From: an uncultured Jannaschia sp.
GTDB taxonomy: Bacteria > Pseudomonadota > Alphaproteobacteria > Rhodobacterales > Rhodobacteraceae
Direction: 5' to 3'
Assembly (NCBI GenBank): GCA_947494145.1
Contig: CANLTZ010000010.1
Location: forward strand, 124,001-188,000
DNA: 64,000 nucleotides
Positions 11,546 through 35,803 of this stretch are shown one piece after another. Every line of letters begins with the position of its first letter. The first letter of the stretch is position 1. A program made the position numbers and the translations under genes. The notes under the pieces were generated by a model, which saw only the letters and a program-made list of their open reading frames with translations, searched no databases and was not told the DNA's origin.

Positions 11546-11558
11546 CTGCGTGCCTTCC

Positions 11559-19182: not shown

Positions 19183-19240
19183 TGTTGCCCAGCCTTGGGC
19201 CCCCGTGTAGGTAGCCGCGAAACCGACGGAGGTGGGCAGA

Positions 19241-20503: not shown

Positions 20504-20523
20504 CACCGAGGTGCAAGCGTCTG

Positions 20524-21690: not shown

Positions 21691-22103
21691 GGCGGACAGT
21701 CATCAGGCTTGGTGGAAGCCGGGGTATCGGCGGGCCATGCTGCGGCCTTCAGACGGGTCTTCTGGTGGGCTTTATCCTTGCAAGGCCATTGCTCCGCCCC
21801 AGCGAGGCGCTGAGATCAGCCAAGTCGCCGTGCCGGGGGGGCAGCCCGGCGATTGACCCGGCGCTTTGCGGACTTGAACCCGGTCCGGGCGCGCAGAGCG
21901 CGCACGGGGCTGGAACCTTCATTATCAGTAGCTTACAAGAAAAGTGAGCAATTCGTGATTTAGGGTGTTGACCCACCGAGCGCTCAAAAACATCTTTCTG
22001 CCAAGCTGGAAGAAATGGGCAAGGCGGCCAGGGGGCAACCCCGGTCGCCTTTCTTGTTTCGATGTCGTGCGGACCAAACGAAACCTGCACGGAGCTTACG
22101 GGG
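21691..22103. promoter_or_regulatory. GTA upstream and leader region
   Basis: This 413-base non-coding stretch lies between mltG and GTA gene 1. It contains a GC-rich hairpin (GCGCGC-AGA-GCGCGC near 21889-21903) and an AT-rich segment at about 21915-21965 suited to a promoter. A possible -35/-10 pair follows: TTGACC at 21969-21974, then CATCTT after 17 bases. Last is the terminator-like hairpin at 22021-22060. I see no TTAA-N7-TTAA CtrA site, in keeping with indirect CtrA control of GTA clusters elsewhere. The promoter itself is inferred. Confidence 0.5.
22021..22060 (+). terminator. terminator-like hairpin just before GTA gene 1
   Basis: A 9-bp stem (AAGGCGGCC with GGTCGCCTT, one G-T pair) is extended by an inner GGGG-CAA-CCCC helix and followed by TTCTTGTTT. 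The whole has the form of an intrinsic terminator. It ends 44 bases before the g1 start, so it either stops upstream transcripts or acts as an attenuator in the GTA leader. Confidence 0.55.
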
Positions 22104-22457
22104 ATGCGAGAGCAAGAAGGAGTGTTTGAGTCCGACTTTGACGAGGCGGACGATTTGGGGCGGGCGGTGACGCGGGCGAGAGACATGCTCGTGTCGACGA
22201 CCAATTTGTTGTCGGGGCAAGTCAGGAAACTGAACGCCCTGTCAGAAGAAGAACGGCAAGTGAAGGGGCTGGATGCCGTGTTGAAGGATCTCAACAGGGC
22301 CCTGGCGGTTGCCGATGAAATGGAAAGGAAGGTGGCCGATGCAAAACGCATCGAAAGGGGCGGAGATGGCTTCGACCTCAACGAAGCACGCGCTCAGATC
22401 AGGGGCCGCCTTGATCGCATCCGCAAGCAAAGCGGAGCGGGAAGCATTTCTGAATGA
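22104..22457 (+). CDS. GTA gene 1, small terminase protein
   Basis: First gene of the GTA cluster. The 117-residue acidic, mostly helical protein has a coiled-coil core (LVSTTNLLSGQVRKLNALSEEERQ, DAVLKDLNRALAVADEMERKVAD). It corresponds to Rhodobacter capsulatus GTA gp1, the small terminase subunit that works with the large terminase in headful packaging of cell DNA. The ATG at 22104 follows GGAG with a nine-base spacer. The 3' end overlaps the large terminase gene by more than 90 bases. Confidence 0.82.
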   Translation: MREQEGVFESDFDEADDLGRAVTRARDMLVSTTNLLSGQVRKLNALSEEERQVKGLDAVLKDLNRALAVADEMERKVADAKRIERGGDGFDLNEARAQIRGRLDRIRKQSGAGSISE

Positions 22458-23736
22458 GTTGACTGAAAATGAGCTGGGATCATTACCCTGGCTTTTCGAT
22501 TTCTGGGCCTTGGAGCACCAATTGCCGCCAGAGGGAGAGTGGCGGACATGGGTCATCCTGGGTGGGCGCGGCGCGGGGAAAACCCGCGCCGGAGCCGAGT
22601 GGGTACGCTCGAAAGCGGAAGGGTCCCGGCCGTTGCAGGCCGGGACATGTCGGCGGATTGCGCTGGTGGGGGAAACCTTCGATCAGGTTCGAGAGGTCAT
22701 GATCGAGGGGGATAGCGGGGTACTGGCTTGTTCCCCCCCGGATCGCAGGCCGGTCTGGAAGGCAGGCCAGCGCAAGCTGGTTTGGCCCAACGGGGCGGAG
22801 GCGATTGCCTGTTCGGCCTATGACCCCGAGACGCTTCGCGGGCCGCAATTCGACGGGGCCTGGGCGGATGAATTGGGGAAATGGAAGCAGGCCGAAGAAG
22901 CCTGGACACAGTTGCAGTTTTGTTTGCGGCTTGGGGATTTGCCGCAATGCGCGGTGACGACGACGCCGCGGAATGTCGGTGTGCTGAAGGAGTTATTGGC
23001 ACGGCCGAGTACGGTAAAGACTCATGCCCCGACCGAGGCCAACCGCGCCAATCTGGCGGAAGGCTTCCTGGAAGAGGTTCGGGCGAAGTTCGAAGGGACG
23101 CGCCTGGGTCGGCAGGAATTGGATGGCATCCTGGTGGAAGATATGGAGGGGGCCTTCTGGAATTCGGCCATGTTGGAGGCTGGGCGCGACACGGCGCCCG
23201 AGAGTTTCGACCGGATCGTTGTGGGCGTTGACCCGGCGGTGACATCGGGCGGGGCCTCGGACGAGACAGGGATCGTCGTCGTCGGTGCGATCACGCAAGG
23301 TGCGGTGAAGGATTGGAAGGCCTGGGTGTTGGAAGATGCGTCGGTCGCGGCGGCATCGCCCACGCAATGGGCCGAGGCGGTGGCCGGGGCCTATGATAGG
23401 TGGGACGCCGACCGCGTGGTGGCCGAGGGCAACCAGGGCGGTGACATGATCGAAGCGGTGCTGCGGCAAGTGGCGCCGCAGGTGAGTTACCGCAAGGTGA
23501 CGGCGCGCGCGGCCAAGGGCGCGCGGGCAGAGCCGGTTGCAGCCCTTTATGAGCAGGGGCGGGTGCGCCATGTTCGCGGGTTGGCCGCGTTGGAAGACCA
23601 GATGTGCCGCATGGGCCGCGGAGGCTTTGGCGGGGCAGGGTCGCCCGACCGGGTCGACGCGCTGGTCTGGGCGCTGTGGGAAGCGTTGCTTGACCCGGCG
23701 AAGGGGCGAGCGGGACCGCGAATGCGGGTTCTGTAA
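22339..23736 (+). CDS. GTA gene 2, terminase large subunit
   Basis: The ATP-driven DNA-packaging motor and nuclease of the GTA, about 465 residues. Walker A is GGRGAGKT (about residues 75-82), an acidic Walker B-like region is FDGAWADELGKW, and the nuclease domain opens with VVGVDPAVTSGG. Two starts are plausible: ATG 22339, preceded by AGGAAGG, and ATG 22366. Either way the gene overlaps g1. A strong terminator follows the stop. Confidence 0.93.
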   Translation: MQNASKGAEMASTSTKHALRSGAALIASASKAEREAFLNELTENELGSLPWLFDFWALEHQLPPEGEWRTWVILGGRGAGKTRAGAEWVRSKAEGSRPLQAGTCRRIALVGETFDQVREVMIEGDSGVLACSPPDRRPVWKAGQRKLVWPNGAEAIACSAYDPETLRGPQFDGAWADELGKWKQAEEAWTQLQFCLRLGDLPQCAVTTTPRNVGVLKELLARPSTVKTHAPTEANRANLAEGFLEEVRAKFEGTRLGRQELDGILVEDMEGAFWNSAMLEAGRDTAPESFDRIVVGVDPAVTSGGASDETGIVVVGAITQGAVKDWKAWVLEDASVAAASPTQWAEAVAGAYDRWDADRVVAEGNQGGDMIEAVLRQVAPQVSYRKVTARAAKGARAEPVAALYEQGRVRHVRGLAALEDQMCRMGRGGFGGAGSPDRVDALVWALWEALLDPAKGRAGPRMRVL

Positions 23737-23746
23737 CGGATAAGCG

Positions 23747-23770
23747 GGGGCCTTCGGGCCCCTTTTTCTT
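23747..23770 (+). terminator. intrinsic terminator between GTA g2 and g3
   Basis: GGGGCC-TTCG-GGCCCC followed directly by TTTTTCTT: a perfect six-bp GC stem with an extra-stable TTCG tetraloop and a U-run. It lies inside the GTA operon, in the only sizeable gap (58 bases) between g2 and g3. Confidence 0.85.
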
Positions 23771-23794
23771 TGAACGCTACGAAGAGGACAGGCC

Positions 23795-24946
23795 ATGTTC
23801 GGATTTGGTCGAAAGACGACGCCAGTGGCAGAGGTAAAGGCCTCGGCGACGGGGCGTGTCGCGGCAATGGGAAGTAGCGGTCGGGCTGTCTGGTCGCCGC
23901 GCGATACCGGATCGCTGGTGCGGCTTGGCTTCACCGGGAACCCCGTGGGCTTTCGCGCGGTCAAGCTGGTGGCGGAGGCGGCGGCCGCCGTGCCGCTGGT
24001 GTTCCACGACCGGGAGGGCCGTTTGGACATCCATCCGGTGCTGGACCTGCTGGCGCGCCCTAACCCTGGGCAGAGCCGGTCGGAATGGCTTGAGGCGCTG
24101 TTTGGGCAGATCCTGCTGACCGGCAATGGCTATGTCGAGGGAGTTGGCGCGGGCGGTCTGCCGGGTGAGCTGCATGTTCTACGCTCGGACCGGATGTCGG
24201 TTGTGCCCGGACCGGATGGCTGGCCCGTGGCCTATGACTATACCGTCGGCGGGCGCAAGCATCGCTTCCAGGTGGGCGAGCTTTCCCCTGTCTGTCACAT
24301 CCGCGCGTTCCATCCGACGGATGACCATTACGGGCTGAGCCCGATGCAGGCGGCGGCGTCGGCGGTGGATGTGCACAATGCGGCGTCTCGCTGGTCGAAG
24401 GGGTTGCTGGACAATGCCGCGCGGCCCTCGGGCGCGATCGTGCATCTGGGCGAGCAGGAATTGTCGCCCGAGCAGTTCGACCGCCTGTCGGTGGAATTGG
24501 AGGCCAACCATCAGGGCGCGCGCAATGCCGGGCGGCCCATGCTGTTGGAAGGCGGGTTGGACTGGAAGCCCATGGGGTTCTCGCCCTCGGACATGGAGTT
24601 CCAGAAGACCAAGGAAGCCGCCGCGCGAGAGATCGCCACGGCGTTCGGTGTGCCGCCCATGATGCTGGGTATCCCGGGGGACGCGACCTATGCCAATTAC
24701 GCAGAGGCCAATCGGGCTTTCTATCGCCTGACGGTTCTGCCGCTGGTGGGCAAGGTTTGCGAGGCCTTGTCCCATTGGCTGGGGCTGCATCTGGGGGAGC
24801 GCGCGGCGCTGCTGGTGGATCGCGACCGCGTGCCCGCTTTGGGTTCCGAGCGCGATGCGGAATGGACCCGGATTGCCGCCGCCGATTTCCTGACCACCGA
24901 CGAGAAGCGGAGGCTTCTGGGATTGGCGCCATTGGGTGAGGCGTGA
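23795..24946 (+). CDS. GTA gene 3, portal protein (HK97 family)
   Basis: The dodecameric ring at the head vertex through which DNA enters and leaves. The 383-residue protein shows HK97-portal blocks: NPVGFRAVKLVAEAAAAVPLVF, HPVLDLLARPNPGQSRSEWLEAL, LSPMQAAASAVDVHNAASRW and AFGVPPMMLGIPGDATYANYAEANRAF. It starts after the g2/g3 terminator, with AGAGGACAGG as ribosome site. Its stop overlaps the next start (GTGA). Confidence 0.94.
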   Translation: MFGFGRKTTPVAEVKASATGRVAAMGSSGRAVWSPRDTGSLVRLGFTGNPVGFRAVKLVAEAAAAVPLVFHDREGRLDIHPVLDLLARPNPGQSRSEWLEALFGQILLTGNGYVEGVGAGGLPGELHVLRSDRMSVVPGPDGWPVAYDYTVGGRKHRFQVGELSPVCHIRAFHPTDDHYGLSPMQAAASAVDVHNAASRWSKGLLDNAARPSGAIVHLGEQELSPEQFDRLSVELEANHQGARNAGRPMLLEGGLDWKPMGFSPSDMEFQKTKEAAAREIATAFGVPPMMLGIPGDATYANYAEANRAFYRLTVLPLVGKVCEALSHWLGLHLGERAALLVDRDRVPALGSERDAEWTRIAAADFLTTDEKRRLLGLAPLGEA

Positions 24947-25176
24947 GCGCGCTGCGCAGCGGAGGCTCCCGCTTTTTGTATGACAGCTTCGACGCCGCCA
25001 ATGCCCGGATCGACGCCAACGAGCGCGTCATGGAGGAGCGCTGGGAGGGGCTGAATTTTCGGCTTCGCCAGATCGAATGTTCGCTTGAACGCCTGGAGCG
25101 CCGGCTTTGGCTGGCGGTGATGGGTGTCGCGGGAACGGTCCTGGCGCAGGGCGTCAGCTATTTGATTTCACTCTGA
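24943..25176 (+). CDS. GTA gene 3.5, small membrane-type head-formation protein
   Basis: A 77-residue protein with a charged amphipathic N-terminal half, likely coiled (DAANARIDANERVMEERWEGLNFRLRQIE), and one C-terminal hydrophobic segment (LWLAVMGVAGTVLAQGVSYLISL). Position and layout match the small gene between portal and protease in Rhodobacter capsulatus GTA, which is needed for particle formation. It begins with GTG overlapping the portal stop by four bases. Confidence 0.75.
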   Translation: MSALRSGGSRFLYDSFDAANARIDANERVMEERWEGLNFRLRQIECSLERLERRLWLAVMGVAGTVLAQGVSYLISL

Positions 25177-25193
25177 CAAAAAGGAGACCCCGC

Positions 25194-25721
25194 ATGGGTC
25201 TGGAACGGAAGTTCGCGCATGGGGATGCCCCCGTGCGGCTGGAGGAGGGTGCCCGGATCACGGGCTATGCCTCATGGTTCGGGGTCGAAGATACGGGCCG
25301 CGACGTGGTGGCGCCGGGCGCCTATTGCGACAGCCTGGCACGCGCCTCGGCCGAAAGTCGGTCGATCAAGATGCTGTGGCAGCACGACCCGGCGCAGGTG
25401 ATCGGCGTTTGGGACGAAGTCCGAGAGGATGATCGCGGGCTCTTCGTGAAGGGCCGTTTGCTGCCTGGCGTCGAAAAAGCCCGCGAGGCGGCTGCCTTGA
25501 TCGAGGCGGGCGCGCTGGACGGGCTGTCCATCGGCTACACGGTCCGACGGGCTGTCAAAGACAATCAGGGGCGCAGGCTTCTGAAGGAACTGGAGCTTTG
25601 GGAAGTGTCGCTTGTGACCTTTCCGATGCTGCCCAGTGCGCGGGTCGGGGCCAAGGCGGACCCCATGCGCGACGTGGCGCGGGCACTGAGGGCCGCGCGT
25701 GAGGAACTGGCGCGCGACTGA
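25194..25721 (+). CDS. GTA gene 4, prohead protease (HK97 family)
   Basis: It processes the capsid protein during head maturation. It is 175 residues long and shows the herpesvirus/HK97 serine protease pattern: IKMLWQHDPAQVIGVW with the catalytic His, and GALDGLSIGYTV with the catalytic Ser. The start at 25194 follows AAGGAG, which rules out the longer in-frame extension. The capsid gene follows with a gap of about 30 bases. Confidence 0.92.
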   Translation: MGLERKFAHGDAPVRLEEGARITGYASWFGVEDTGRDVVAPGAYCDSLARASAESRSIKMLWQHDPAQVIGVWDEVREDDRGLFVKGRLLPGVEKAREAAALIEAGALDGLSIGYTVRRAVKDNQGRRLLKELELWEVSLVTFPMLPSARVGAKADPMRDVARALRAAREELARD

Positions 25722-25750
25722 TGCCGCCGAACACCGGAAAGGGACGTCCC

Positions 25751-26893
25751 ATGAGCCATGACGGCGTGGGCGAAGTCACCGAGGCGCTGGCTGGATTGGT
25801 CAGCGACTTCAAGGGCTTTCGCCAACAGATCACTGAAAAGATGCAAAAACAGGAAGAGCGTCTGATGACCCAACATACCCCCCGCCCGATGCTTGAGACC
25901 GCCGGCGCCGTCGACGCGCCCCACCAGAAGGCCATGGATGCCTATCTGCGTTCGGGCGATGATGACGGGCTGCGTGCCCTGGCATTGGACGCCAAGTCCA
26001 TGAACACGACCGTGTCCGCCGAGGGCGGCTATCTGGTCGATCCGCAGACCGCGGAGACGGTGAAGACGGTTCTGACCTCGTCGGCCTCGATCCGTGCCAT
26101 TGCCAATGTCGTCAACGTCGAGGCCACGTCCTATGACGTGCTGATCGACCGCAGCGAAACCGGTGCTGGCTGGGCCACGGAAGCGGGCCCCGGCGGCGAG
26201 ACCGGCACGCCGATCTTCGATCGTATCTCGATCCCGCTCAATGAGTTGTCGGCGCTGCCGAAGGCAAGCCAGCGTCTGCTGGATGACGCCGCCTTCGACA
26301 TCGAAAGCTGGTTGGCGGGTCGGATCGCCGATAAGTTTTCCACCGCGGAAGCGGCGGCTTTTGTCGCGGGCGACGGCGTGGACAAGCCTACGGGCTTTCT
26401 GACCTATGCCTCCGTCCCGGATGCGTCCTGGGCTTGGGGTTCGCTAGGCTATGTGGCGACGGGTGCCGCGGGCGAGTTCGACGTCGACAAGCCGTCGGAT
26501 GCGGTCGTGGATCTGGTCTATGCGCTGGGTGCCAAGTACCGCGCCAACGCGACCTTCGTCATGAATTCGAAGACGGCGGGCGCCGTTCGCAAGATGAAGG
26601 ATGCCGATGGCCGCTTCCTCTGGAGTGACAGCCTGTCGTCGGGCCAGCCCGCGCAGCTGATGGGCTATCCGGTGCTGATCGCCGAGGACATGCCTGACAT
26701 CGGCGAAGATGCGACGGCCATCGCGTTTGGCGACTTCGGCACCGGCTACACCGTGGCTGAACGCCCCGATCTGCGGATCCTGCGGGACCCGTTCAGCGCC
26801 AAGCCCCACGTGCTGTTCTATGCGACCAAGCGCGTTGGTGGCGATGTGACGGACTTTGCCGCGATCAAGCTGCTGAAGTTCGCAGAAGCCTGA
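25751..26893 (+). CDS. GTA gene 5, major capsid protein (HK97 fold)
   Basis: The main head subunit, about 380 residues. A helical, charged N-terminal delta region (about residues 1-50) is expected to be removed by the gp4 protease. The HK97 core then runs from MNTTVSAEGGYLVDPQTAETV to the end, with typical blocks ASQRLLDDAAFDIESWLAGRI, GDGVDKPTGFL and MGYPVLIAEDMP. The ATG at 25751 is preceded by GGAAAGGGA. An ATG overlapping the g4 stop (25721) is an alternative. A strong hairpin follows the stop. Confidence 0.95.
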   Translation: MSHDGVGEVTEALAGLVSDFKGFRQQITEKMQKQEERLMTQHTPRPMLETAGAVDAPHQKAMDAYLRSGDDDGLRALALDAKSMNTTVSAEGGYLVDPQTAETVKTVLTSSASIRAIANVVNVEATSYDVLIDRSETGAGWATEAGPGGETGTPIFDRISIPLNELSALPKASQRLLDDAAFDIESWLAGRIADKFSTAEAAAFVAGDGVDKPTGFLTYASVPDASWAWGSLGYVATGAAGEFDVDKPSDAVVDLVYALGAKYRANATFVMNSKTAGAVRKMKDADGRFLWSDSLSSGQPAQLMGYPVLIAEDMPDIGEDATAIAFGDFGTGYTVAERPDLRILRDPFSAKPHVLFYATKRVGGDVTDFAAIKLLKFAEA

Positions 26894-26901
26894 TTTGGTT
26901 T

Positions 26902-26921
26902 GGCAGCCCTGGCGGGCTGCC
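26902..26921 (+). other. hairpin after the capsid gene
   Basis: GGCAGCCC-TGGC-GGGCTGCC is a perfect 8-bp stem with a 4-base loop, nine bases after the capsid stop. No T-run follows, so it is more likely an mRNA-stabilising or processing element than a full terminator. It would help raise capsid above downstream products. Confidence 0.6.
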
Positions 26922-27051
26922 CCAAGCACCCCCCGCATCAGTGCGGGTGCGGGGGTGGGACGGGGCCGGTGGCCTCCGGCCTGGTCCGCACGCGCGGCCT
27001 GCCGGTTCCGTCCTGACTTCAATCGAAATTCTTGCCCATGCGGAGGTGCCG

Positions 27052-27594
27052 ATGGCGATGATGGTGCTCAGTCAAGAGGGGATCGCGGATGATGCCCTGC
27101 CCGTGGCGGCATTGGCCGCCCAGATGCGGCTGCCCGACCTTTGGGATGCGGTGCCCTCGCAGGTGGATCGTTTGCGGCAACGGCTACGCGCGGCGATTTC
27201 CATGGTCGAGACGCGCAGTGGTCGTCTGCTGATCGCGCGGGATGTCATTCTCGGAGGTGAAGCGCCGGGTGGCAACTGCGTGCCGGTGCCGTTGCTGCCG
27301 GTCAGCGACCATCTTGGGGCGGAGATCGGCGGTGTCGCTGTGACAACGCTGCGGGTGGAGAACGGCTTGTCGGGACCCGTTATCGTCTTGGCGCGATCGG
27401 TGTCCGGCGGCGTTCGGATCACGGTGCGTGTCCGGGCAGGCTACGAGACATGGGCTGAGGTGCCCGACGGCTTAGCGCAGGCTGTGTTGGTGCTGGCTGA
27501 AGCGCTGGATATGGGGACGCTCGATGCCGTTGAGGGCACGGCACGGGCCTTGATCGGGCCCTACCGGTTGCGCCGAATCGGGGGGCGCGGCTGA
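27052..27594 (+). CDS. GTA gene 6, head-tail connector protein
   Basis: About 180 residues, similar in position and layout to RcGTA gp6, an adaptor ring protein beneath the portal. Helical N-terminal blocks (PVAALAAQMRLPDLWDAVPSQVDRLRQRLRAAISMVE) are followed by a beta-rich middle. The ATG at 27052 follows GGAGG with a five-base spacer, and the ATG at 27058 would give a longer spacer. The stop shares a base with the g7 start. Confidence 0.78.
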   Translation: MAMMVLSQEGIADDALPVAALAAQMRLPDLWDAVPSQVDRLRQRLRAAISMVETRSGRLLIARDVILGGEAPGGNCVPVPLLPVSDHLGAEIGGVAVTTLRVENGLSGPVIVLARSVSGGVRITVRVRAGYETWAEVPDGLAQAVLVLAEALDMGTLDAVEGTARALIGPYRLRRIGGRG

Positions 27595-27935
27595 TGCCAA
27601 GGGTTTTCACACGCCGGTTGGTGTTGTCATCGGTCGTTCGCGTGCCCGATGGCGGCGGCGGCTTTCTGGAGGAGTGGGTCGAGAAGGGCGCATTCTGGGG
27701 CGAGGTGCGGATGCGGTCGGGCAGTCTGCGGGCCACCGAATTCGGTGAAACCCCGCGTTTGCGGGTCAAGATCCAAACCCACGGGCTGCCGGAGGGACAC
27801 CCGATGCGCCCGGTCACCGGAGAGCGGATCGCCGATGGTGGGCGGCGGTTCGAAGTGGAGGCCGTCCATGACGGCGATCGTCGCATCCTGGTGATTTTGG
27901 CACGGGAGTTGGCTGAAGCGGAGGATGCGGCATGA
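27594..27935 (+). CDS. GTA gene 7, head-tail adaptor (head closure)
   Basis: A 113-residue beta-rich protein with the pattern of phage head-closure proteins: LVLSSVVRVPDGGGGFLEEWVEKGAFWGEV, then MRPVTGERIADGGRRFEVEAVHDGDRRILVILAREL. It lies in the conserved g6-g7-g8 order and overlaps both neighbours (one base with g6, ATGA with g8). Confidence 0.85.
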   Translation: MPRVFTRRLVLSSVVRVPDGGGGFLEEWVEKGAFWGEVRMRSGSLRATEFGETPRLRVKIQTHGLPEGHPMRPVTGERIADGGRRFEVEAVHDGDRRILVILARELAEAEDAA

Positions 27936-28345
27936 CCTATGCCATGAGCGAGAGCCTTCAGATGGGCATCTATGGGCTTCTGGTGGCGGATCCCGAGTTG
28001 GACAGCCTGGTCGCAGGCGCGGTCTATGACGCGGTGCCTGGCAACGCGCCCGACCTGTTCGTGGCGCTGGGCCCCGAGCAGGCCCGTGGGCGCGACGATG
28101 CCAGTGGCCAAGGCTCGGTCCATGATCTGCGGATCAGCGTTGTCACAAGCCGGGACGGTTTTCTGGCGGCCAAGGGCGTCGCGGCCAGGGTGTCCGATTT
28201 GTTGGTCGGAGGCGGTGTTGCGCTGACACGGGGCCGTCTTGTGTCGATGCGGTTTCTGCGGGCGCGGGCCCGCCGGGATGAAGGCGAGGGGACGCGGCGG
28301 ATCGACTTATGGTTTCGCGCCCGTCTGGACGATCAAGCCGCTTGA
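27932..28345 (+). CDS. GTA gene 8, DUF3168 tail terminator-like protein
   Basis: This 137-residue protein matches DUF3168: MSESLQMGIYGLLVADPELDSLVAGAVYDAVPG near the N-terminus and HDLRISVVTSRDGFLAAKGVAARVSDLLVGG in the middle. Such proteins cap the tail tube at the head end. It overlaps g7 by four bases. Confidence 0.88.
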   Translation: MTYAMSESLQMGIYGLLVADPELDSLVAGAVYDAVPGNAPDLFVALGPEQARGRDDASGQGSVHDLRISVVTSRDGFLAAKGVAARVSDLLVGGGVALTRGRLVSMRFLRARARRDEGEGTRRIDLWFRARLDDQAA

Positions 28346-28371
28346 GCGCGGCACTTCTAAGGAGAAATGAG

Positions 28372-28785
28372 ATGGCTGTTCAAAGCGGCAAGGACCTGTT
28401 GCTGAAGGTCGATCTGGACGGAACCGGCGTGTTTGTGACGCTGGCAGGTCTACGGGCCACGCGGCTGACCTTCAATGCGGGGTCGATTGATGTGACATCG
28501 ACGGAAAGCGCTGGAGGCTGGCGCGAATTGCTGGGCGGCGGTGGCGTGAAGTCGGCGCAGATTGCGGGGTCCGGCATCTTCCGCGATGCGGATACGGATG
28601 CCCGGGCGCGGCAACTTTTCTTCGATGGGGAAGTGCCGGGCTTTCAAGTCATCTTGCCAGATTTCGGCATCGTGGAGGGCCCGTTCCAGATCACGTCGCT
28701 GGAATATGGCGGAAGCCATGATGGCGAGGCGACGTATGAGATCGCCCTCGCATCTGCGGGCGAATTGATCTTCACGCCGCTGTGA
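28372..28785 (+). CDS. GTA gene 9, major tail protein (TP901-1 family)
   Basis: The tail tube subunit, 137 residues: MAVQSGKDLLLKVDLDG at the start, NAGSIDVTSTESAGGWRELLGGGGVKSAQIAGSGIF in the middle and YEIALASAGELIFTPL at the end. The start at 28372 follows AAGGAG with a six-base spacer, a stronger ribosome site than most genes in the cluster, as expected for an abundant protein. Longer in-frame forms run through g8. Confidence 0.92.
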   Translation: MAVQSGKDLLLKVDLDGTGVFVTLAGLRATRLTFNAGSIDVTSTESAGGWRELLGGGGVKSAQIAGSGIFRDADTDARARQLFFDGEVPGFQVILPDFGIVEGPFQITSLEYGGSHDGEATYEIALASAGELIFTPL

Positions 28786-29105
28786 TGGGCGACGGCAACC
28801 CGTTTGCGGGCGAAGTGGCGCTGGTTCTGAACGGGAAGCGCCAGGTCCTGAAGCTGACCTTGGGCGCTTTGGCGGAGCTGGAAGCGTCGATGGAGGCGGA
28901 CAGTTTGGTCACCTTGGTGGAGCGGTTCGAGACGGGCCGCTTCGCGACGCGCGACGTGGCGCGGTTGCTGCTGGCCGGGTTGCGCGGAGGCGGGTGGCGC
29001 GGAGACGCGGCCACCCTACTTGACGCGGAAATCGAAGGCGGGCCGGTGGCGGCGACGCGCGTGGCGGCGCTGCTTCTGGGCCGTGCCTTCGCGCTGCCGA
29101 CATGA
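28785..29105 (+). CDS. GTA gene 10, tail assembly protein (GTA family)
   Basis: A 106-residue protein of the GTA gp10 family, with a short beta part (GEVALVLNGKRQVLKLTLGAL) and helical remainder (AELEASMEADSLVTLVERFETGRFATRDVARLLLAGLRGGG). It probably helps tail assembly around the tape measure. Start is ATG 28785 or the adjoining GTG 28782; both overlap the g9 stop. Confidence 0.85.
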   Translation: MGDGNPFAGEVALVLNGKRQVLKLTLGALAELEASMEADSLVTLVERFETGRFATRDVARLLLAGLRGGGWRGDAATLLDAEIEGGPVAATRVAALLLGRAFALPT

Positions 29106-29305
29106 GCGGGCGGTTCGATTGGCCCGCGCTGATGGCGGCGGGGATGCGCGGGCTTGGGCTGCGGCCGACTGAGTTTTGGGCGCTGACCCCGGCGGAATTG
29201 GCGTTTCTGCTGGGCCATGGGGACGGGAAGCTGCCGATGGATCGCGCTGGGCTCGACGCTTTGGCGGCACGGTTCCCGGATAAGGTGGAGACAGGTGATG
29301 GATGA
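29102..29305 (+). CDS. GTA gene 10.1, phage tail assembly chaperone
   Basis: A 67-residue protein with the pattern of small tail assembly chaperones: FDWPALMAAGMRGLGLRPTEFWALTPAELAFLLG. It overlaps g10 by ATGA and the tape measure gene by eight bases. In longer phages this position often uses a programmed frameshift; here the two frames are simply overlapping genes. Confidence 0.82.
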   Translation: MSGRFDWPALMAAGMRGLGLRPTEFWALTPAELAFLLGHGDGKLPMDRAGLDALAARFPDKVETGDG

Positions 29306-29954
29306 ATTGGATGGCGCCGGGGTCGACCGGTTCGAAGACAAGCTGGACGCGCTTGAGGCCCGTCTGGGTGATGCACAAACCACGGTGTCGCGCTTCACCG
29401 ACGAGCTTGGGACGTTGCAGGGGCAGATGCTGTTCACGCAGCGCGAAGTCTCGGGGCTGTCGCGATCTTTCGGAGGCACGCTGAAGCGCGCGTTTGATGG
29501 CGTGGTGTTCGATGGGATGAAGCTGTCGGATGCCTTGTCGCGCGTAGCACAATCCATGGTGAACGCAGCATACAACACGGCTGTCCGGCCCGTGACGCAA
29601 GCCCTGGGCGGAGCCGTTGCGTCGGGCGTGAACGCTGTCTTGCCGTTCGCCGATGGTGGCACGTTTAGTCAGGGTCGCGTCATGCCCTTTGCAAAGGGTG
29701 GCGTCGTGGCTGGCCCCACGACCTTCCCGATGCGGGGCGCCACGGGGCTGATGGGAGAAGCGGGGCCTGAGGCCATCATGCCGCTGACCCGCGGCCCCGA
29801 TGGGCGTTTGGGGGTGCAGACCCATGGCGGTCGGGGTGCCGTGTCTGTGACGATGAATATCTCGTCGCCCGATGCCGAAAGCTTCCGTCGTTCCCGTAGT
29901 CAGATCGCAGCCGAAATGTCCCGAGCCTTGGCCCGGGGCGGTCGCAACCGGTGA
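29298..29954 (+). CDS. GTA gene 11, short tape measure protein
   Basis: This 218-residue protein sets tail length, and its short length fits the short tail of GTA particles. The N-terminal coiled-coil part (DRFEDKLDALEARLGDAQTTVSRFTDELGTLQGQ) is followed by a small hydrophobic segment and the conserved tail tape measure end ADGGTFSQGRVMPFAKGGVVAGPTTFPM...GEAGPEAIMPL. The ATG at 29298 lies within the overlap ATGGATGA with the chaperone stop. Confidence 0.86.
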   Translation: MDELDGAGVDRFEDKLDALEARLGDAQTTVSRFTDELGTLQGQMLFTQREVSGLSRSFGGTLKRAFDGVVFDGMKLSDALSRVAQSMVNAAYNTAVRPVTQALGGAVASGVNAVLPFADGGTFSQGRVMPFAKGGVVAGPTTFPMRGATGLMGEAGPEAIMPLTRGPDGRLGVQTHGGRGAVSVTMNISSPDAESFRRSRSQIAAEMSRALARGGRNR

Positions 29955-29963
29955 GGTAGAGCC

Positions 29964-30596
29964 ATGTCATTCCACGAAATCAGGTTCCCGGCGCGGCTGT
30001 CGCTGGGGTCAATCGGTGGGCCGGAACGGCTGACCGAGATCGTCACCCTGGCCAACGGTCACGAGGAGCGGAACACGCCCTGGTCCCATTCGCGACGGCG
30101 CTACGATGCCGGTGTGGGGATGCGGTCGCTCGACGACGTTGGCGAGTTGATCGATTTCTTCGAGGCCCGGCGCGGGCGGCTCTATGGATTTCGTTGGAAG
30201 GACTGGGCGGACTACAAGTCATGCCGTCCCTCCGAAGAGGTTGCGTTCGACGACCAGGCGATTGGGAGCGGAGATGGTGTAACAACCGTTTTTCAGCTTT
30301 CGAAGACCTATCGATCTGGGGCGCAGGATTATGTCCGGCCCATCACGAAGCCCGTGCCTGGGTCAGTCAGAATTGGTGTATCGGACGACGAGCTGCAGGA
30401 TACGATCGGGTATCTTGTGGATACGGCGACGGGTTTGGTCACGTTCCAATCGCCGCCTGATCTTGGCACCGAGATAACGGCTGGTTTTGAGTTCGATGTG
30501 CCGGTTCGTTTCGATAGCGATTCCATTCTTACGTCGGTTGCCAATTTCAAGGCGGGCGAAGTCCCCGATGTGCCGGTGGTTGAGGTGCGGACATGA
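29964..30596 (+). CDS. GTA gene 12, DUF2460 distal tail protein
   Basis: This 210-residue baseplate ring protein of the DUF2460 family has typical blocks: FHEIRFPARLSLGSIGGPE, RRRYDAGVGMRSLDDVGELIDFFEARRGRLYGFRWKDW and the C-terminal SVANFKAGEVPDVPVVEVR. It overlaps g13 by ATGA. GC falls in its 3' half, at the start of the lower-GC part of the cluster. Confidence 0.92.
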   Translation: MSFHEIRFPARLSLGSIGGPERLTEIVTLANGHEERNTPWSHSRRRYDAGVGMRSLDDVGELIDFFEARRGRLYGFRWKDWADYKSCRPSEEVAFDDQAIGSGDGVTTVFQLSKTYRSGAQDYVRPITKPVPGSVRIGVSDDELQDTIGYLVDTATGLVTFQSPPDLGTEITAGFEFDVPVRFDSDSILTSVANFKAGEVPDVPVVEVRT

Positions 30597-31462
30597 CCGC
30601 GCTTTCAGATCATCTGGCCTCGGGGGCGTCGTCGGTTTGTCGTGCCTGGGTTGTCACGCGAACCGACGGCGTCGTGCTAGGGTTTACGGATCATGACCGA
30701 GACCTGATTGTCGATGGTGTTCAATGCACGGCGTCAACGGGGCTGAGCGCAGGCGCGCTTCAGGCGACGTCTGGGCTGGCGGTGGACAATTCCGAAGCGC
30801 AGGGTGCGTTGAGCCACGATGCGATCACCGAGGCGGATATTCGCGCGGGCCGTTGGGATGCCGCCGAAGTTGTCTCATATCTTGTGAATTGGGCGGATCC
30901 GGCTGCTTTCGAGATCGTGTTTCGGGGTACTTTGGGCGAAATAAGCTGGGGCGAGGGGGCTTTCTCGGCCGAGCTGCGGGGATTGTCTGAAGCGCTGAAC
31001 GTGACGCGCGGTCGGGTCTTTCAGGGCCGTTGCGATGCCGTTTTGGGCGATACGCGCTGCAAGGTTGAAATGGGTCCGCTTTTTGCTGTTGAAGCCGAGG
31101 TCCGATCCGTTTCTGAAGGGCGGCTTTTTGTCTTCGATGCGCTGCGTGAATATGCGCCCAAGTGGTTTGAACGGGGGCGTCTGATTGTCATCAGCGGCGA
31201 AGCTGCTGGCCTGGAAGAGCGGATAAAGACCGATCGAGGCAATGACACGCAACGCACGGTGGAATTGTGGTCCATGTTGCGTGCCCCGATTGTTCCTGGT
31301 GACCGTATCCGTCTAGAAGCAGGATGCGACAAACGGGCTGAAACCTGTCGCTTGAAGTTCAACAACATTCTGAATTTCAGGGGGTTTCCGTCGATTCCGG
31401 GTGAAGACTGGCTGATGGCCTACCCAACCCGAGACGGCCGCAATGATGGTGGGTCGCTATGA
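30593..31462 (+). CDS. GTA gene 13, DUF2163 hub protein
   Basis: This 289-residue tail hub protein has an N-terminal DUF2163 domain and the C-terminal phage BR0599-type domain. Four cysteines lie in two pairs, GRCDAVLGDTRCKV and AGCDKRAETCRLKF, before FNNILNFRGFPSIPGEDWL. In the related lambda-type hub, cysteines coordinate an iron-sulfur cluster, so a metal site is likely here. The overlap with g14 is again ATGA. Confidence 0.92.
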   Translation: MTALSDHLASGASSVCRAWVVTRTDGVVLGFTDHDRDLIVDGVQCTASTGLSAGALQATSGLAVDNSEAQGALSHDAITEADIRAGRWDAAEVVSYLVNWADPAAFEIVFRGTLGEISWGEGAFSAELRGLSEALNVTRGRVFQGRCDAVLGDTRCKVEMGPLFAVEAEVRSVSEGRLFVFDALREYAPKWFERGRLIVISGEAAGLEERIKTDRGNDTQRTVELWSMLRAPIVPGDRIRLEAGCDKRAETCRLKFNNILNFRGFPSIPGEDWLMAYPTRDGRNDGGSL

Positions 31463-31905
31463 ATGAGATCGTTGTCGAGGCCCGTCGCTGGCTTGGGACA
31501 CCATATGTCCATCAGGCAGCGTCATGCGGTGCGGGGTCGGATTGCCTTGGTTTGATTAGGGGCATCTGGAGAATGCTCTTCGGTGAGGAACCAACGGGTA
31601 TCCCCGCCTATACAGCGGACTGGTCCGAACCGCAGAGAGACGAGACATTGATGCGGACGGCTGCGGAGCATCTTGTTCCGCTTGCGATGTCGCAACCGTT
31701 TCGCCCGGGTGAGGTACTTCTTTTCCGCATGAAGCGTGGCGCTATCGCAAAGCATCTGGGCGTGGTTGCTGAGCCCGATCCTTTGCCGACTTTTATCCAT
31801 GCTTACAGCGGCCACGCTGTTGTCGAGAGCTCCCTTTCTAATCCATGGCGTAACCGGATCGCGGCACGCTTTGAGTTCCCTAAGACGATTCAAAGGAACA
31901 TCTGA
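31459..31905 (+). CDS. GTA gene 14, NlpC/P60 cell-wall peptidase
   Basis: This 148-residue peptidase in the tail tip opens peptidoglycan during DNA delivery. The catalytic Cys lies in CGAGSDCLGLIRGIWR and the His in AIAKHLGVVAEPD; the N-terminal EARRWLGTPYVHQAAS is typical of NlpC/P60. One base separates its stop from the g15 start. Confidence 0.93.
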   Translation: MNEIVVEARRWLGTPYVHQAASCGAGSDCLGLIRGIWRMLFGEEPTGIPAYTADWSEPQRDETLMRTAAEHLVPLAMSQPFRPGEVLLFRMKRGAIAKHLGVVAEPDPLPTFIHAYSGHAVVESSLSNPWRNRIAARFEFPKTIQRNI

Positions 31906-31906
31906 T

Positions 31907-34900
31907 ATGGCCACATTGGTTCTAGGCGCCGTTGGCGCGGCTGTCGGCGGCAGTCTGGGCGGATCGTTCCTGGGGCTGAGCGCCGCCGTGATCGGGCGTG
32001 CCGCTGGTGCGACCCTTGGCCGGGTCATCGATCAATCTGTCCTTGGCTCCGGCTCGGATGCGATCGAGCATGGCCGGGTGGACCGTATCCGAGTTGTTGG
32101 TGCGTCAGAGGGCGCCGCGATCCCCCGTGTGGTCGGTCGCGTGCGTGTACCGGGTCAAGTGATTTGGGCCACTCGTTTCAAGGAAACCCGCGAGACATCT
32201 GGGGGCGGTGGAGGCAAAGGGGCGCCAAAGCCCCCAAAGACGACAACATACAGTTATTCTGTGTCTTGCGCGATGGCGCTTTGCGAAGGGCAGATTGCGC
32301 GCGTTGGACGAATTTGGGCCGACGGTGTCGAGATTGCGCGCAATTCGCTTCAGATGCGTGTTTATGATGGCGCAGACGACCAGCAGCCTGATGCCCTCAT
32401 GGAAGCGCTGGACGGCGCTGGCAATGTCCCTGCCTATCGTGGAACTGCCTATGTTGTCATCGAGGATATGGATCTGACACCTTTTGGAAATCGGATTCCA
32501 AATTTGTCTTTTGAAGTTGTCCGTTTTGCGAATGCGCCCGGTGAGATTGCCTCGCCTGCTGAGTTGATTGAAGGCGTCTGTATCGTTCCGGGAACGGGGG
32601 AATACTCTCTGTCAACTACGGCTGTGCACTATAATCAAGGTGGCGGCACGCGCGATTCGGCCAACGTTAACACGGAGCAGGCCGTTGCGGATTTCAAGGT
32701 ATCAATGGATGACCTTGTGGAAGAACTGCCAAACATAAAGACAGGATTGCTGGTCGTCTCTTGGTTTGGGGACGATCTACGTTGTGGTTCCTGCACAATT
32801 CGACCAATGGTCGAACAGAAAAAGGCAGAAGGCGATCCACAGCCCTGGCGTGTCTCCGGACTAACGCGGAGCACCGCGCTGGCTGTTCCCGAGCGAGACG
32901 GGCGTCCGATATATGGTGGCACACCAAGTGACACGTCAGTGGTCGAAGCCATTCGCGACCTTCGGGAACGCGGGCTCGATGTCACTTTCTATCCGTTTAT
33001 TCTGATGACTCCGAATACGGGGAACGGACTGCCTGATCCCTACGGCGGCGATGAGCAGGCTGCCTTGCCCTGGCGAGGGCGGATTACGACATCTGTCGCG
33101 CCGATGCGCGATGGCAGTGTCGATCGGACTAGCGCAGCAGAGGATGAGGTTGCTGCATTCTTCGGCACGACGTCGGGGGCGGATTTCTGGCAAGGTGGCT
33201 CTGGGCCTGAGCCTACCATTAGCGGTCCTGCGAATGATTGGTCCTACCGGAGGTTTATTCTTCACTACGCGAAGCTGTGTGCTGCTGCTGGCGGGGTCGA
33301 GGCCTTTTGCATTGGTTCCGAAATGCGTGGAATAACGCAGATTCGAGGCAATGAAGACCGCTTTCCGTCGGTGGATCAAATGGTATCACTTGCAGCGGAA
33401 GTGCGGGCAATCTTGCCAAGTGCGAAAATAAGCTACGCAGCAGACTGGTCGGAGTATTTTGGATATACGCCCGAAGATACTGGAAACTTGCACTACCATC
33501 TAGACCCGCTCTGGGCATCTGAAGATATCGACTTCATTGCTATTGACAATTATATGCCACTTGCGGATTGGCGTGATGGAGAAGAACACGCAGATTTCGA
33601 GGCGGAGTCTGAGCATCGAATTGAGTATCTGCAAAGCAATATCGAAGGCGGTGAGGGTTTTGATTGGTTCTATTCGACAAGTGAGGCGCGCGAGGCGCAG
33701 CGTCGAACAGACATTACTGACGGTGAAGGGAGCCCTTGGGTTTGGCGCTTCAAAGACATTCGTTCATGGTGGTCTAACCTCCACTACAACAGAATCGATG
33801 GAGTTGTCGCAAACATTCCGACTGGCTGGGAGCCTGGCCTAAAGCCAATCCGTTTTACAGAATACGGATGTGCGGCAATTGACAAAGGAGCCAATCAACC
33901 CAATAAGTTTCTAGACCCAAAGTCTTCTGAATCGGCGTTGCCCTATTTCTCAAATGGTCGGCGAGACGATACTGCGCAGATGCAATATCACCGCGCGCTT
34001 CTTAGCTATTGGAAGCAAGATGATCGGAATCCTGTTTCAACCGTTTATGGCGGGCAAATGCTTGACTTGGCGCATTCGGCCGCTTGGGCTTGGGACGCGC
34101 GTCCTTGGCCGGCATTCCCGGGTCTGGACCAATTCTGGACGGATGCTCCGAATTATGATCGCGGACATTGGCTGTCCGGACGCGCCGCGTCTCAACCATT
34201 GGCGAACGTGATCGCAGAGATATGCGATGCGGTCGGCATCGCACGTTATGATGTGCGCAAAGTCCACGGGGTCGTTCGCGGATATTCAGTCTCAAGTGTC
34301 CAGTCAGCACGAGCTGATTTGCAACCGTTGCTGATGGCGAATGGGGTCGATGTTACTGAACGAGACGGTACCCTCGTCTTCTTCATGAGGGCGGAAGCAA
34401 CCTTGCATGAAGTACCCGCGGACCGACTCGTTCGAACCGAGCAACCCCTGGTGCAGACGGAGAGGGGTGCATCTGCAGAAGTGCCAGCGCGCGTTGTCGT
34501 GCATCACATCGATGCGAACGGCGATTTCGAGGCCAGAGTCGGCGTGGCGACGCAACCTGGTACGAAGTCGCTCCCGGTGGCGGAGTCGGAGTTGCCTTTG
34601 GCTTTGACGCGAGGAGAGGCGCACGGGCTGGCGGAACGTTTCCTGGCCGAGGCAAGGGTATCGCGGGATGGCGTCGAGATGACGTTGCCTCCGTCCATGC
34701 GTCAAATCGGGAGCGGTGACTATCTGCGCCTGAAGGGTCAGGACGAAACCTGGCGGATCGACCGGCTTGAGGACATGGGTGCGCGGGGCGTTTCAGCCAC
34801 ACGGACTGAGCGAGCGGTTTTTGAGGCGAGTGACGCGGTTGAGGATGGGTCTGGTCGGGTGAGACCTCTGGCCCCTCTTCCGGTCGATGCGCTGATCATG

Positions 34901-35803
34901 GACCTACCACAGCTGCGCTCGGATGACGTGCCTCATGCACCATATATTGCTGTTTCAGCACGTCCGTGGCCTGGCTCGGTCACGGTGTATTCTTCGCCCG
35001 AGGATGCAGGCTACCGTGTCAACTCGGAGTTTCGGGAACCCGCGATGGTCGGCACGACCGAGACGGAACTTCTGGCGTCTCAGCCTGGCATTTGGGACTA
35101 TGGTCCTGAGTTGCTCGTCCGTCTACCTGCTGGGGCGCTTTCTTCCGTCTCTTCGACTGCATTGTTTGCGGGGGGCAATGCCGCGGCGATTGGGACAGAG
35201 GGCGCGGACTGGGAAGTGTTTCAGTTTCGGGATGCTCGCTTAGTCGGTTCTGGCCTTTGGGCCTTGTCTAAGCGGCTGCGAGGTCAGAAGGGGACGGTGC
35301 CAGCAATAGCTGATGTCCGGCCTGTCGGCAGTCGTGTCGTGATCCTTAACGAGGGCATTGGTCAGCTTGATCTGCCATTGGAAGCGGTTGGGCTTGAGCG
35401 TCATTTGCGCATCGGGCCGTCTCGGTTGTCCAACGATCATGAGTCGTTCCGATACTCCAAAATCGTCCCCGTTGGCGCGGGATTGCGTCCCTTTCCGCCA
35501 GTTCACGTCCTGGTGAGGCGTGAAGGACAAAATGTTGAAGTGAGCTGGATCCGGCAATCCCGGATTGCAACTGCCGACTGGGGGGCTGTCGATGTTCCGC
35601 TTGGCGAAGCGCGGGAGCAGTATCTTGTAACGGTGACAGATGCAGAGGGGACAATCCGGCTTGAACGAATTGTGAGTGAGCCGAAGACAGCCTTCAACCG
35701 CACAATTATTGGTGACCAACAGGACGCTCCGTTCAAGGTATCGGTTGCGCAGGTTTCCGAACTTGTTGGTCCGGGTGTCGCTTCAAGCATCACGGTTTCG
35801 TGA
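31907..35803 (+). CDS. GTA gene 15, tail-tip megatron with TIM-barrel-like domain
   Basis: The largest tail protein, 1298 residues, close to the usual length for GTA gp15. A Gly-rich hydrophobic N-terminus (GAVGAAVGGSLGGSFLGLSAAVIG) leads into a tail-hub region (ALCEGQIARVGRIWADGVEI). The GTA TIM-barrel/glycosidase-like domain is at about residues 350-780 (CIGSEMRGITQIRG, YAADWSEYFGYTPED, IDFIAIDNYMPLADWRDG, FTEYGCAAIDKGANQPNKF). A receptor- or wall-binding C-terminal part follows. The start at 31907 follows AAAGGA. Bases 32.5-34.3 kb have much lower GC than the head genes. Confidence 0.94.
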   Translation: MATLVLGAVGAAVGGSLGGSFLGLSAAVIGRAAGATLGRVIDQSVLGSGSDAIEHGRVDRIRVVGASEGAAIPRVVGRVRVPGQVIWATRFKETRETSGGGGGKGAPKPPKTTTYSYSVSCAMALCEGQIARVGRIWADGVEIARNSLQMRVYDGADDQQPDALMEALDGAGNVPAYRGTAYVVIEDMDLTPFGNRIPNLSFEVVRFANAPGEIASPAELIEGVCIVPGTGEYSLSTTAVHYNQGGGTRDSANVNTEQAVADFKVSMDDLVEELPNIKTGLLVVSWFGDDLRCGSCTIRPMVEQKKAEGDPQPWRVSGLTRSTALAVPERDGRPIYGGTPSDTSVVEAIRDLRERGLDVTFYPFILMTPNTGNGLPDPYGGDEQAALPWRGRITTSVAPMRDGSVDRTSAAEDEVAAFFGTTSGADFWQGGSGPEPTISGPANDWSYRRFILHYAKLCAAAGGVEAFCIGSEMRGITQIRGNEDRFPSVDQMVSLAAEVRAILPSAKISYAADWSEYFGYTPEDTGNLHYHLDPLWASEDIDFIAIDNYMPLADWRDGEEHADFEAESEHRIEYLQSNIEGGEGFDWFYSTSEAREAQRRTDITDGEGSPWVWRFKDIRSWWSNLHYNRIDGVVANIPTGWEPGLKPIRFTEYGCAAIDKGANQPNKFLDPKSSESALPYFSNGRRDDTAQMQYHRALLSYWKQDDRNPVSTVYGGQMLDLAHSAAWAWDARPWPAFPGLDQFWTDAPNYDRGHWLSGRAASQPLANVIAEICDAVGIARYDVRKVHGVVRGYSVSSVQSARADLQPLLMANGVDVTERDGTLVFFMRAEATLHEVPADRLVRTEQPLVQTERGASAEVPARVVVHHIDANGDFEARVGVATQPGTKSLPVAESELPLALTRGEAHGLAERFLAEARVSRDGVEMTLPPSMRQIGSGDYLRLKGQDETWRIDRLEDMGARGVSATRTERAVFEASDAVEDGSGRVRPLAPLPVDALIMDLPQLRSDDVPHAPYIAVSARPWPGSVTVYSSPEDAGYRVNSEFREPAMVGTTETELLASQPGIWDYGPELLVRLPAGALSSVSSTALFAGGNAAAIGTEGADWEVFQFRDARLVGSGLWALSKRLRGQKGTVPAIADVRPVGSRVVILNEGIGQLDLPLEAVGLERHLRIGPSRLSNDHESFRYSKIVPVGAGLRPFPPVHVLVRREGQNVEVSWIRQSRIATADWGAVDVPLGEAREQYLVTVTDAEGTIRLERIVSEPKTAFNRTIIGDQQDAPFKVSVAQVSELVGPGVASSITVS

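Follow-up and report, generated by a model that had tools for sequence, protein, structure and literature searches.

The window analysed here, 64,000 nucleotides from an uncultured Jannaschia sp., carries a cluster of gene transfer agent (GTA) genes, and it raises the question of whether this is an ordinary agent of the kind known from Rhodobacter capsulatus (RcGTA) and how transcription of its structural genes is controlled. The cluster (Table 1) consists of 17 open plus-strand genes in RcGTA order between 22104 and 35803, as the first-pass annotation had claimed, and the TerL P-loop GGRGAGKT, the protease His/Ser and the NlpC Cys/His, which we take to be the catalytic motifs, are visible by eye. 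Its assignment to the Rhodobacterales GTA is supported by Pfam and PHROGs matches and by a full-length match (1371 bits) between g15 and the RcGTA megatron 6tba_8A, with a single GTA_TIM match in the genome; gene order and megatron alike correspond to those of RcGTA (rcc01682-01698 plus outlying loci). The same annotation had seen no integrase, repressor or replication gene, and a Pfam scan of the cluster genes and 12 flanking genes (within 11562-40454) likewise finds none. The small terminase g1, which in an RcGTA-type agent would be expected to lack an N-terminal DNA-binding domain, is most alike within the genus in its C-terminal part, and its start at 22104 is favored over 22062 because the conserved leader extends beyond 22062. 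An ordinary, intact RcGTA-type agent is thus the supported reading of the cluster, and the strain probably also produces the particle, which in an agent of this type would carry random host DNA of about 4 kb. In the excerpts to which our citations by PMC number refer, a complete GTA cluster was announced in 2015 for Jannaschia aquimarina, with only its presence stated (PMC4408345); this is the same cluster in the same genus-level group.

Table 1. Features of the GTA cluster, its upstream element and the lysis genes, in window coordinates. The start codons used for g1, g2, g4, g6, g9, g11 and g15 are the first positions given.
Feature	Coordinates	Strand	Basis or remark
Endolysin, rcc00555 type (GH108 + PG_binding_3)	14028..14639	+	Pfam
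Holin, rcc00556 type (GTA_holin_3TM)	14630..15178	+	Pfam; 20/20 genus genomes
-35 hexamer TTGACC of g1 promoter	21968..21973	+	
Near-palindrome GAGCGCTC in promoter spacer	21978..21985	+	candidate GafA C-terminal domain element
-10-like hexamer CATCTT	21991..21996	+	17 nt after -35
Near-invariant transcript start AAGCTGGAAGAAATGGGC	22003..22020	+	possible sigma pause element
Intrinsic-terminator-like leader hairpin + T-rich tail, downstream of promoter and upstream of g1	22012..22060	+	-32.9 kcal/mol, z -3.6
g1, small terminase, 117 aa	22104..22457	+	position; genus comparison; no Pfam match
g2, large terminase (TerL)	22366..23736	+	Terminase_6N/6C
Intrinsic terminator between g2 and g3	23746..23771	+	18/19 genus loci, 0.9 expected
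g3, portal	23795..24946	+	Phage_portal
g3.5	24943..25176	+	position; no Pfam match
g4, prohead protease	25194..25721	+	Peptidase_S78
g5, major capsid protein (HK97-type)	25721..26893	+	Phage_capsid
g6, head-tail adaptor	27049..27594	+	phrog_442 (PHROGs)
g7, head completion (stopper)	27594..27935	+	Phage_HCP
g8, tail terminator	27932..28345	+	Tail_completion_gp17
g9, tail tube	28372..28785	+	Phage_tail_2
g10	28782..29105	+	Phage_TAC_11 (GTA-gp10)
g10.1, tail assembly chaperone	29102..29305	+	Phage_TAC_6
g11, short tape measure, 218 aa	29298..29954	+	phrog_32885 and others
g12, distal tail protein	29964..30596	+	DUF2460
g13, hub	30593..31462	+	phiJL001_Gp84_N / BR0599
g14, peptidase	31459..31905	+	NLPC_P60 below Pfam cut-off; phrog_329
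g15, megatron, 1298 aa	31907..35803	+	GTA_TIM/Rcc01698_C; 6tba_8A

While the cluster itself is of an already-known kind, the element that precedes it, made up of a promoter (21968-21996), a near-invariant transcript start and a hairpin with a T-rich tail (22012-22060), is a new part. The best-fitting -35 hexamer is TTGACC in 18 of 19 promoters of the genus and TTGAC(T/C/A) in 43 of 44 others, and the best-fit spacing to the -10 is 17 nt in 57/63; the -10 hexamers of the genus are far from consensus, so that an activator may be required as well. A spacer box of the form GnnCGnT[CT] is found in 53/64 promoters (8% expected in shuffles), and 52 of these 53 agree in offset to within one base. From the promoter spacing we place the start of the transcript at about 22003, 101 nt upstream of g1, the -35 lying 136 nt upstream of g1. 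A core resembling TGCTAGAAG, a possible sigma-dependent pause element, is present in many relatives and weaker in the genus. A leader peptide was considered and rejected, as many loci, the window included, have no ATG where the conserved region begins. A simple consensus scan lists neither promoter nor leader terminator in the window or in locus L016, and in L054 it lists the terminator and not the promoter.

In order to characterize the hairpin we used 63 loci, that is 68 hits minus 5 without the core pattern, and in 59 of these a hairpin is followed by at least 3 T in 6, a mild criterion; the combination is absent in G003, G005, G006 and L053. Hairpins with a dG of -14 or below occur in 58/63 loci, as against 11-23 in ten sets of shuffled sequences. 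Pairing is seen in 382 of 413 arm cells compared with a mean of 272 when arms are swapped among loci, values to be read with the caveat that the arms were selected because they pair (6 or more of 7) and start at differing offsets, which biases the first number toward pairing and makes the swap control less than strict. RNAalifold predicted no pair from a MAFFT alignment of 50 sequences, which we think reflects differing loop lengths and misaligned arms, and pairing was hence measured on the arms of each individual sequence; the RNA model R1, which has no base pairs, is a sequence model only. When the scan is tightened (5 T in 8, no more than 1 mismatch), only 7/19 genus loci yield a leader terminator (0.7 expected). 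The terminator between g2 and g3 is much rarer outside the genus (23/72, 9.4 expected). As for other transcription units, a leader terminator is found at the tspA candidate in 12/16 cases (0.8 expected), endolysin leaders have no terminator excess (0/20 in the genus, 2/30 in others), and none of the 19 genus loci has a terminator in the gap between g15 and cysE.

The element is recovered by nhmmer (E<=0.01) in 19/19 genus loci and in 50/76 loci of other relatives, the remaining 26 of the 76 being without a match, and every match lies upstream of g2. The 2.13 Mb searched with nhmmer contain no match elsewhere, and they include the regions of gafA, the tspA candidate, the fibre and the lysis genes in this genome. 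A 25-base core is present on 39 IMG/VR contigs, of which 38 have a GTA terL 335-510 nt downstream, while the sequence of the 39th ends 244 nt past the core, with mltG upstream. The element can therefore serve as a very specific DNA tag for locating GTA clusters.

Promoters of the lambda Q and AlpA type have a binding element in the spacer and a terminator downstream (PMC11150451). With its candidate element in the spacer and its predicted terminator, the g1 promoter resembles lambda Q late promoters and the Pseudomonas AlpA promoter, a likeness of layout for which no sequence relation is claimed and in which the pause element is, on our side, only possible. Closer parallels are offered by the GTA of Caulobacter crescentus (CcGTA), where GafZ is described as an antiterminator with an element between -35 and -10, and GafA as homologous to GafY/GafZ, with GafZ homologous to the C-terminal part of GafA (PMC11150451). 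That domain of GafA binds an RcGTA promoter fragment containing -35, -10 and start site (PMC9638019). The Caulobacter authors note that GafA binding elements had not been mapped to the nucleotide and that an unrecognised antitermination activity was possible (PMC11150451). CcGTA (GafY/GafZ, terGTA) has in common with the present system an antiterminator homologue, a -35/-10 element, which on our side is a candidate, and an early-operon terminator; it differs in that GafY and GafZ correspond here to the two ends of the single protein GafA, and in that its terminators are 150-bp repeats, whereas ours are short intrinsic hairpins, one in the leader and one behind g2. RcGTA differs as well, since neither a leader nor a g2-g3 terminator is described for it in the excerpts considered. 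Among the open-licence PMC matches listed, judged by titles and the beginnings of abstracts, none deals with a leader terminator of a Rhodobacterales GTA; a Bartonella antitermination paper is cited in PMC13236601.

The comparisons above establish, at the level of sequence, a predicted sigma-70-like promoter with a spacer box, a conserved initial transcribed region, a leader hairpin with T tail and a terminator after g2, and the function that we infer for them is one of control. We consider it probable that this is an intact RcGTA-type agent maintained by selection, in which termination gates the structural operon and GafA-driven read-through opens it. In cells without GafA, RNA polymerase would start at the g1 promoter and mostly stop about 50 nt further on, or after terL, and these early stops would leave the capsid and tail genes silent. 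CtrA, through its site in the gafA promoter, together with quorum sensing would turn on gafA, and the C-terminal domain of GafA, the GafZ homologue, would bind the spacer box and load onto the polymerase, which could then pass both terminators in the manner of lambda Q, AlpA and GafZ. Particles would be assembled, host DNA packaged and release effected by the endolysin and holin. For Rhodobacterales in general we lean toward the same picture, in which a conserved promoter that carries a GafA element would act together with a leader terminator, often backed by another one after terL, to hold the operon off, and in which GafA would be a processive, Q-like antiterminator moving along with the polymerase through the 14-kb operon. 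If this is true the control of RcGTA and CcGTA would be unified, and the element supplies exact sites at which antitermination by GafA can be tested.

Other explanations have to be weighed against termination gating. An ordinary RcGTA in which GafA only recruits RNA polymerase via omega, the leader hairpin merely guarding the 5' end of the mRNA, is unlikely in our estimation. In its favor, omega binding by GafA is reported and polymerase recruitment has been proposed (PMC9638019, PMC11150451), and a good T tract is missing from several hairpins of the genus. Nevertheless, the T-rich tail follows the hairpin in 59/63 loci, the second terminator, after terL, cannot guard a 5' end, and the spacer box is positioned as in the Caulobacter GafZ element, which argues against recruitment alone. 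The compactness of the unit from promoter to terminator and its conserved sequence might instead reflect a stand-alone small RNA some 55 nt long, with the GTA operon beginning further down. We regard this as improbable, because in RcGTA RNA-seq and EMSA place the start and the GafA sites 76-125 nt upstream of g1 (PMC6363796), to be compared with the -35 and start distances obtained here, and because the unit accompanies g1-g2 even in the inverted block of locus L050. Since mltG ends upstream, the hairpin could also be the mltG terminator or an insulator that is there by chance, a very improbable arrangement given that a promoter directed into the hairpin separates it from mltG, and that the element begins 381-451 nt before g2 even though the distance from mltG to g2 ranges between 452 and 1586 nt within the genus. 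Finally, a decaying or active prophage in place of a domesticated GTA is hardly credible and was rejected on flanks, synteny and selection: although relatives have prophage-like blocks with RcGTA-like baseplates, the cluster, with no integrase among the genes scanned, is flanked by host genes on both sides (upstream including fabF, mltG, ccmF and ccmH, downstream cysE and three pyruvate dehydrogenase genes, from the Pfam scan), occupies the same place in 19 genus loci and has coding sequences under purifying selection, and the GTA parts are spread across four contigs of the genome.

The GC content at third codon positions drops from 75-79% in g2-g8 to 56% in g15. As an explanation, a horizontal exchange of the tail module was considered and dropped, since a drop in the same direction occurs in the relatives too (weak in G007, G010, G016 and G019) and agrees with the decrease in translational adaptation reported for g12-g15 (PMC9765227).

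A search for the outlying GTA loci, head spike, tail fibre and gafA, on which the first-pass annotation had made its reading depend, returned gafA and the DUF2793 tail fibre gene, both outside the cluster; the head-spike fibre GhsB was not detected. The reading has thereby withstood most of the refutation test proposed in that annotation. The product of gafA is a DUF6456 protein, and its promoter contains a CtrA site, TTAAC-N6-GTAAC, with the first base at -66, such sites usually being located at 65-71 (PMC6363796). DUF2793 was also considered as the head spike, an assignment rejected because it is shown to be the RcGTA tail fibre (PMC10883770, PMC8265664). A GhsB query, the RcapMu homologue, which scores 554 bits against Rcc01080, has no match in the genome, an absence common to most relatives tested, with matches in only 14 of 296 genomes of the family, and three RcapNL proteins used as stand-ins for GhsA gave no PDB match. 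A TspA candidate, a pectate-lyase-fold protein, is located one gene from lysS and is present in 16/20 genus genomes at 63-100% identity, a comparison internal to the genus.

The likeness to RcGTA thus extends to gafA, the CtrA site in its promoter, the DUF2793 fibre and the endolysin-holin genes, and the differences include the missing GhsB match and the position of the lysis pair, here only 7 kb from the cluster. Both this pair and the promoter-leader-terminator element had been overlooked in the first-pass annotation. The order endolysin-holin-ccmF is found in 20/20 genus loci and, outside the genus, in 22 of the 30 loci with the best scores.

In the window genome (4.9 Mb, 53 contigs) the gene transfer agent (GTA) cluster is as the first-pass annotation described it, with 17 genes, every one open and in the order of the Rhodobacter capsulatus reference (RcGTA), and a 1298-residue g15 (megatron). 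The g15 protein matches the RcGTA megatron chain along its whole length. It is flanked upstream by mltG and fabF and downstream by cysE and three pyruvate dehydrogenase genes. Among the portal matches listed, where 80 of at least 548 loci were kept, the closest, at 76-81% identity, belong to Jannaschia species; for J. aquimarina a complete GTA was already announced in 2015 (PMC4408345), and the window cluster is one more GTA of established type.

The cluster genes keep place and order in 19 genus loci (the window and 18 relatives; the G012 cluster was not recovered). Among the 18 relatives, tblastn did not recover g1 in 3 and g3.5 in 2, and a g1-like frame is present in all 19 loci. Nei-Gojobori dN/dS values, which were obtained at high synonymous divergence and are not exact rates, range from 0.09 to 0.56 between the window and relative G010 across the 13 GTA genes for which an estimate was possible (g3.5 was left out, g1 gave no match that could be used, and g14 and g15 showed saturation), with 0.12 and 0.19 for the flanking cysE and mltG, and reach 0.79 for g6 and 0.94 for g7 in other genome pairs. 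Most GTA genes should be read as being under purifying selection. The deposited sequence of relative G002 has g2, g10 and g15 split or partial and the remaining genes whole, reflecting either decay or sequencing error. Third-position GC drops towards g15 in the window and, to differing degrees, in the relatives.

Coordinates of the features discussed (window positions unless marked L050)
Feature	Coordinates	Strand
GTA cluster, g1 (small terminase) to g15	22104-35803	+
g1 promoter	21968-21996	
Spacer box in g1 promoter	21978-21985	
Leader hairpin with T-rich tail	22012-22060	
Conserved segment after hairpin	22060-22100	
Terminator between g2 (terL) and g3 (portal)	23746-23771	
Endolysin-holin pair	14028-15178	
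Region examined for GTTAAC-type box	13890-14034	
RF02940 match	17687-17742	
DUF2087 gene	17746-18351	
L050, fabF-mltG-leader-g1-g2	4011-8320	inverted relative to g3-g15
L050, g3-g15	10001-21124	

Ahead of g1 lies a promoter-leader-terminator unit that is undescribed as far as the searched open-licence literature shows, and that makes the mode of action of the RcGTA activator GafA directly testable. The 19 genus loci have in common a TTGACC-N17-CATCTT-like promoter followed by a near-invariant AAGCTGGAAGAAATGGGC, and most of them a G+C hairpin with T-rich tail. For 16 of 18 relatives a 64-base match of the leader clearly exceeds shuffles; it is near the shuffle maximum in G006, G013 and G001, in the last owing to a shift of one base, and a profile recovers the leaders of all three. 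Other genera have an equivalent block upstream of terL, with TTGACT, a TATAAC-like element and GCTAGAAGAAGTGGGC. The profile, made from 47 regex-selected sequences that are counted among its matches, finds (E<=0.01) all 19 genus loci and 50 of 76 others, 46 of these 50 at E<1e-5, and every match lies 358-564 nt upstream of terL. In the 2.13 Mb searched there was no further match save a weak minus-strand one in G018 overlapping the same hairpin, and none in the gafA, fibre, tspA and lysis regions of the window genome. Scanning IMG/VR independently for the 25-base core yielded 39 contigs: 38 of them have a GTA terL 335-510 nt downstream and there is one, with mltG upstream, whose sequence stops 244 nt past the core. 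The window leader matched neither phage records (E<=0.1) nor any Rfam family at gathering threshold.

In one locus, L050, the leader lies ∼420 nt from terL, and promoter, g1 and g2 are jointly inverted away from g3, the two blocks being separated by a frame that by eye looks transposase-like; this is a GTA operon split after terL. Three Roseovarius loci (L068, L077, L083) have g3-g15, and the 10 kb upstream of these genes contains neither a g2 match nor the leader element; their terL must be located elsewhere or have been replaced. Most of the 50 aligned relatives conserve the CGTGCGGA that follows the hairpin, and in the genus this segment could base-pair with a GCAC close to the ribosome site of g1.

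Of 68 plus-strand leader matches, the 63 with the core pattern were each folded singly. A hairpin with at least three T in the next 6 nt is present in 59, and 58 reach -14 kcal/mol, as against 11-23 in ten dinucleotide-shuffle sets; for the window leader folded by itself the value is -32.9 kcal/mol (z -3.6). Across the seven outer pairs, 382 of 413 cells hold a standard pair, a count that leans towards pairing since the arms were selected for it; swapping 3' arms among loci gives a mean of 272 and at most 294, and pair types vary on both sides. RNAalifold on the MAFFT alignment of the leaders predicted no pairs. Under a stricter terminator scan 7 of the 19 genus leaders qualify (0.7 expected), and a simple scan lists the leader of L054 and neither that of the window nor that of L016.

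A second intrinsic terminator occupies the terL-portal spacer in 18 of 19 genus loci, where shuffles predict 0.9; a terminator placed after gene two of an operon that is transcribed as a unit is understandable if polymerase is driven through it. Outside the genus the scan is passed by 23 of 72 g2-g3 spacers (9.4 expected) and by 47 of 60 mltG-g2 regions (17.6 expected), and there is little or no excess in g3-g4 (4/76 vs 4.6), g5-g7 (34/73 vs 30.6) and g8-g9 (3/72 vs 0.8). The operon end ahead of cysE has a terminator in none of the 19 genus loci. The genus tspA leader has one in 12 of 16 cases (0.8 expected), that of L193 differing from the hairpin common to the other eleven.

Of 64 promoters, 53 carry a GnnCGnT[CT] box in the spacer (shuffles predict 8%). 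Its offset agrees to within one base in 52 of the 53, and in 37 it is self-complementary at 6 or 8 of its 8 positions; in the window it is a perfect palindrome, GAGCGCTC. Caulobacter GafZ is reported to have a single target, a palindrome in the main GTA promoter that lies between its -35 and -10, and to enable polymerase passage of the terminator behind the first gene; R. capsulatus GafA corresponds to GafY in its N-terminal and to GafZ in its C-terminal part, and the same authors raise a previously unrecognised antitermination activity of GafA as possible (PMC11150451). GafA-C bound an RcGTA fragment holding the -35, -10 and start site (PMC9638019). Like the GafZ target as reported, the leader element here is limited, within what was searched, to the main cluster promoter. 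On the most parsimonious view GafA would be a Rhodobacterales antiterminator acting at the leader and terL terminators, where we infer the steps from sequence to function.

Among the outlying loci proposed for checking in the first-pass annotation, gafA and the tail fibre were located, and the head-spike fibre GhsB gave no match in the window genome. The gafA gene (contig C3; DUF6456, 367 aa) is accompanied by a small divergent DUF6477 gene, with a guaA-like frame (named by eye) ∼3.3 kb away. Its promoter has TTAAC-N6-GTAAC with the first base 66 nt ahead of the start, resembling the CtrA site, usually at 65-71 nt, of a reported alignment with 14 species (PMC6363796). The fibre (C4) has DUF2793 and 353 aa. 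The TspA candidate, a protein of 775 aa that has a pectate-lyase-type domain, is one gene away from lysS on C1, close to the location reported for TspA (PMC13420450); 16 of the 20 genus genomes conserve it strongly, one has a weak partial match and three have none.

The endolysin-holin pair precedes ccmF in all 20 genus loci and, in other genera, in 22 of the 30 loci that score best, and because this order is kept so widely the site is probably the old place of the pair. In 17 of 20 genus genomes the pair and the megatron TIM domain share a strand and are 17.6-20.4 kb apart, and in 3 they are on separate contigs; in other genera the separation (by eye) is ∼28 kb or more where both share a contig.

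Prophage-like blocks with an RcGTA-like baseplate occur in the genus relatives G004 (L147/L148), G011 (L149/L150) and G010 (L151/L152), with homologues of the g11 C-terminal part and of g12-g15, the latter at 42-55% identity; g1-g10 homologues were not found in them, and the window genome contains a single GTA_TIM match. The final part of the g15 homologue in G010 has 30% identity, and directly behind the megatron of G004 stands a fibre that by eye is DUF2793-like. By eye, a GTTAAC(C/T)G(C/T)TC-like box, in which a half-site resembling that of CtrA continues into CGCTC, stands upstream of the genus endolysin and tspA and perhaps of the tail fibre (L084); it is a candidate site for the GafY-like N-terminal part of GafA, or for CtrA. 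An Rfam match in the window, RF02940 (COG3860 RNA), lies directly upstream of a DUF2087 gene.
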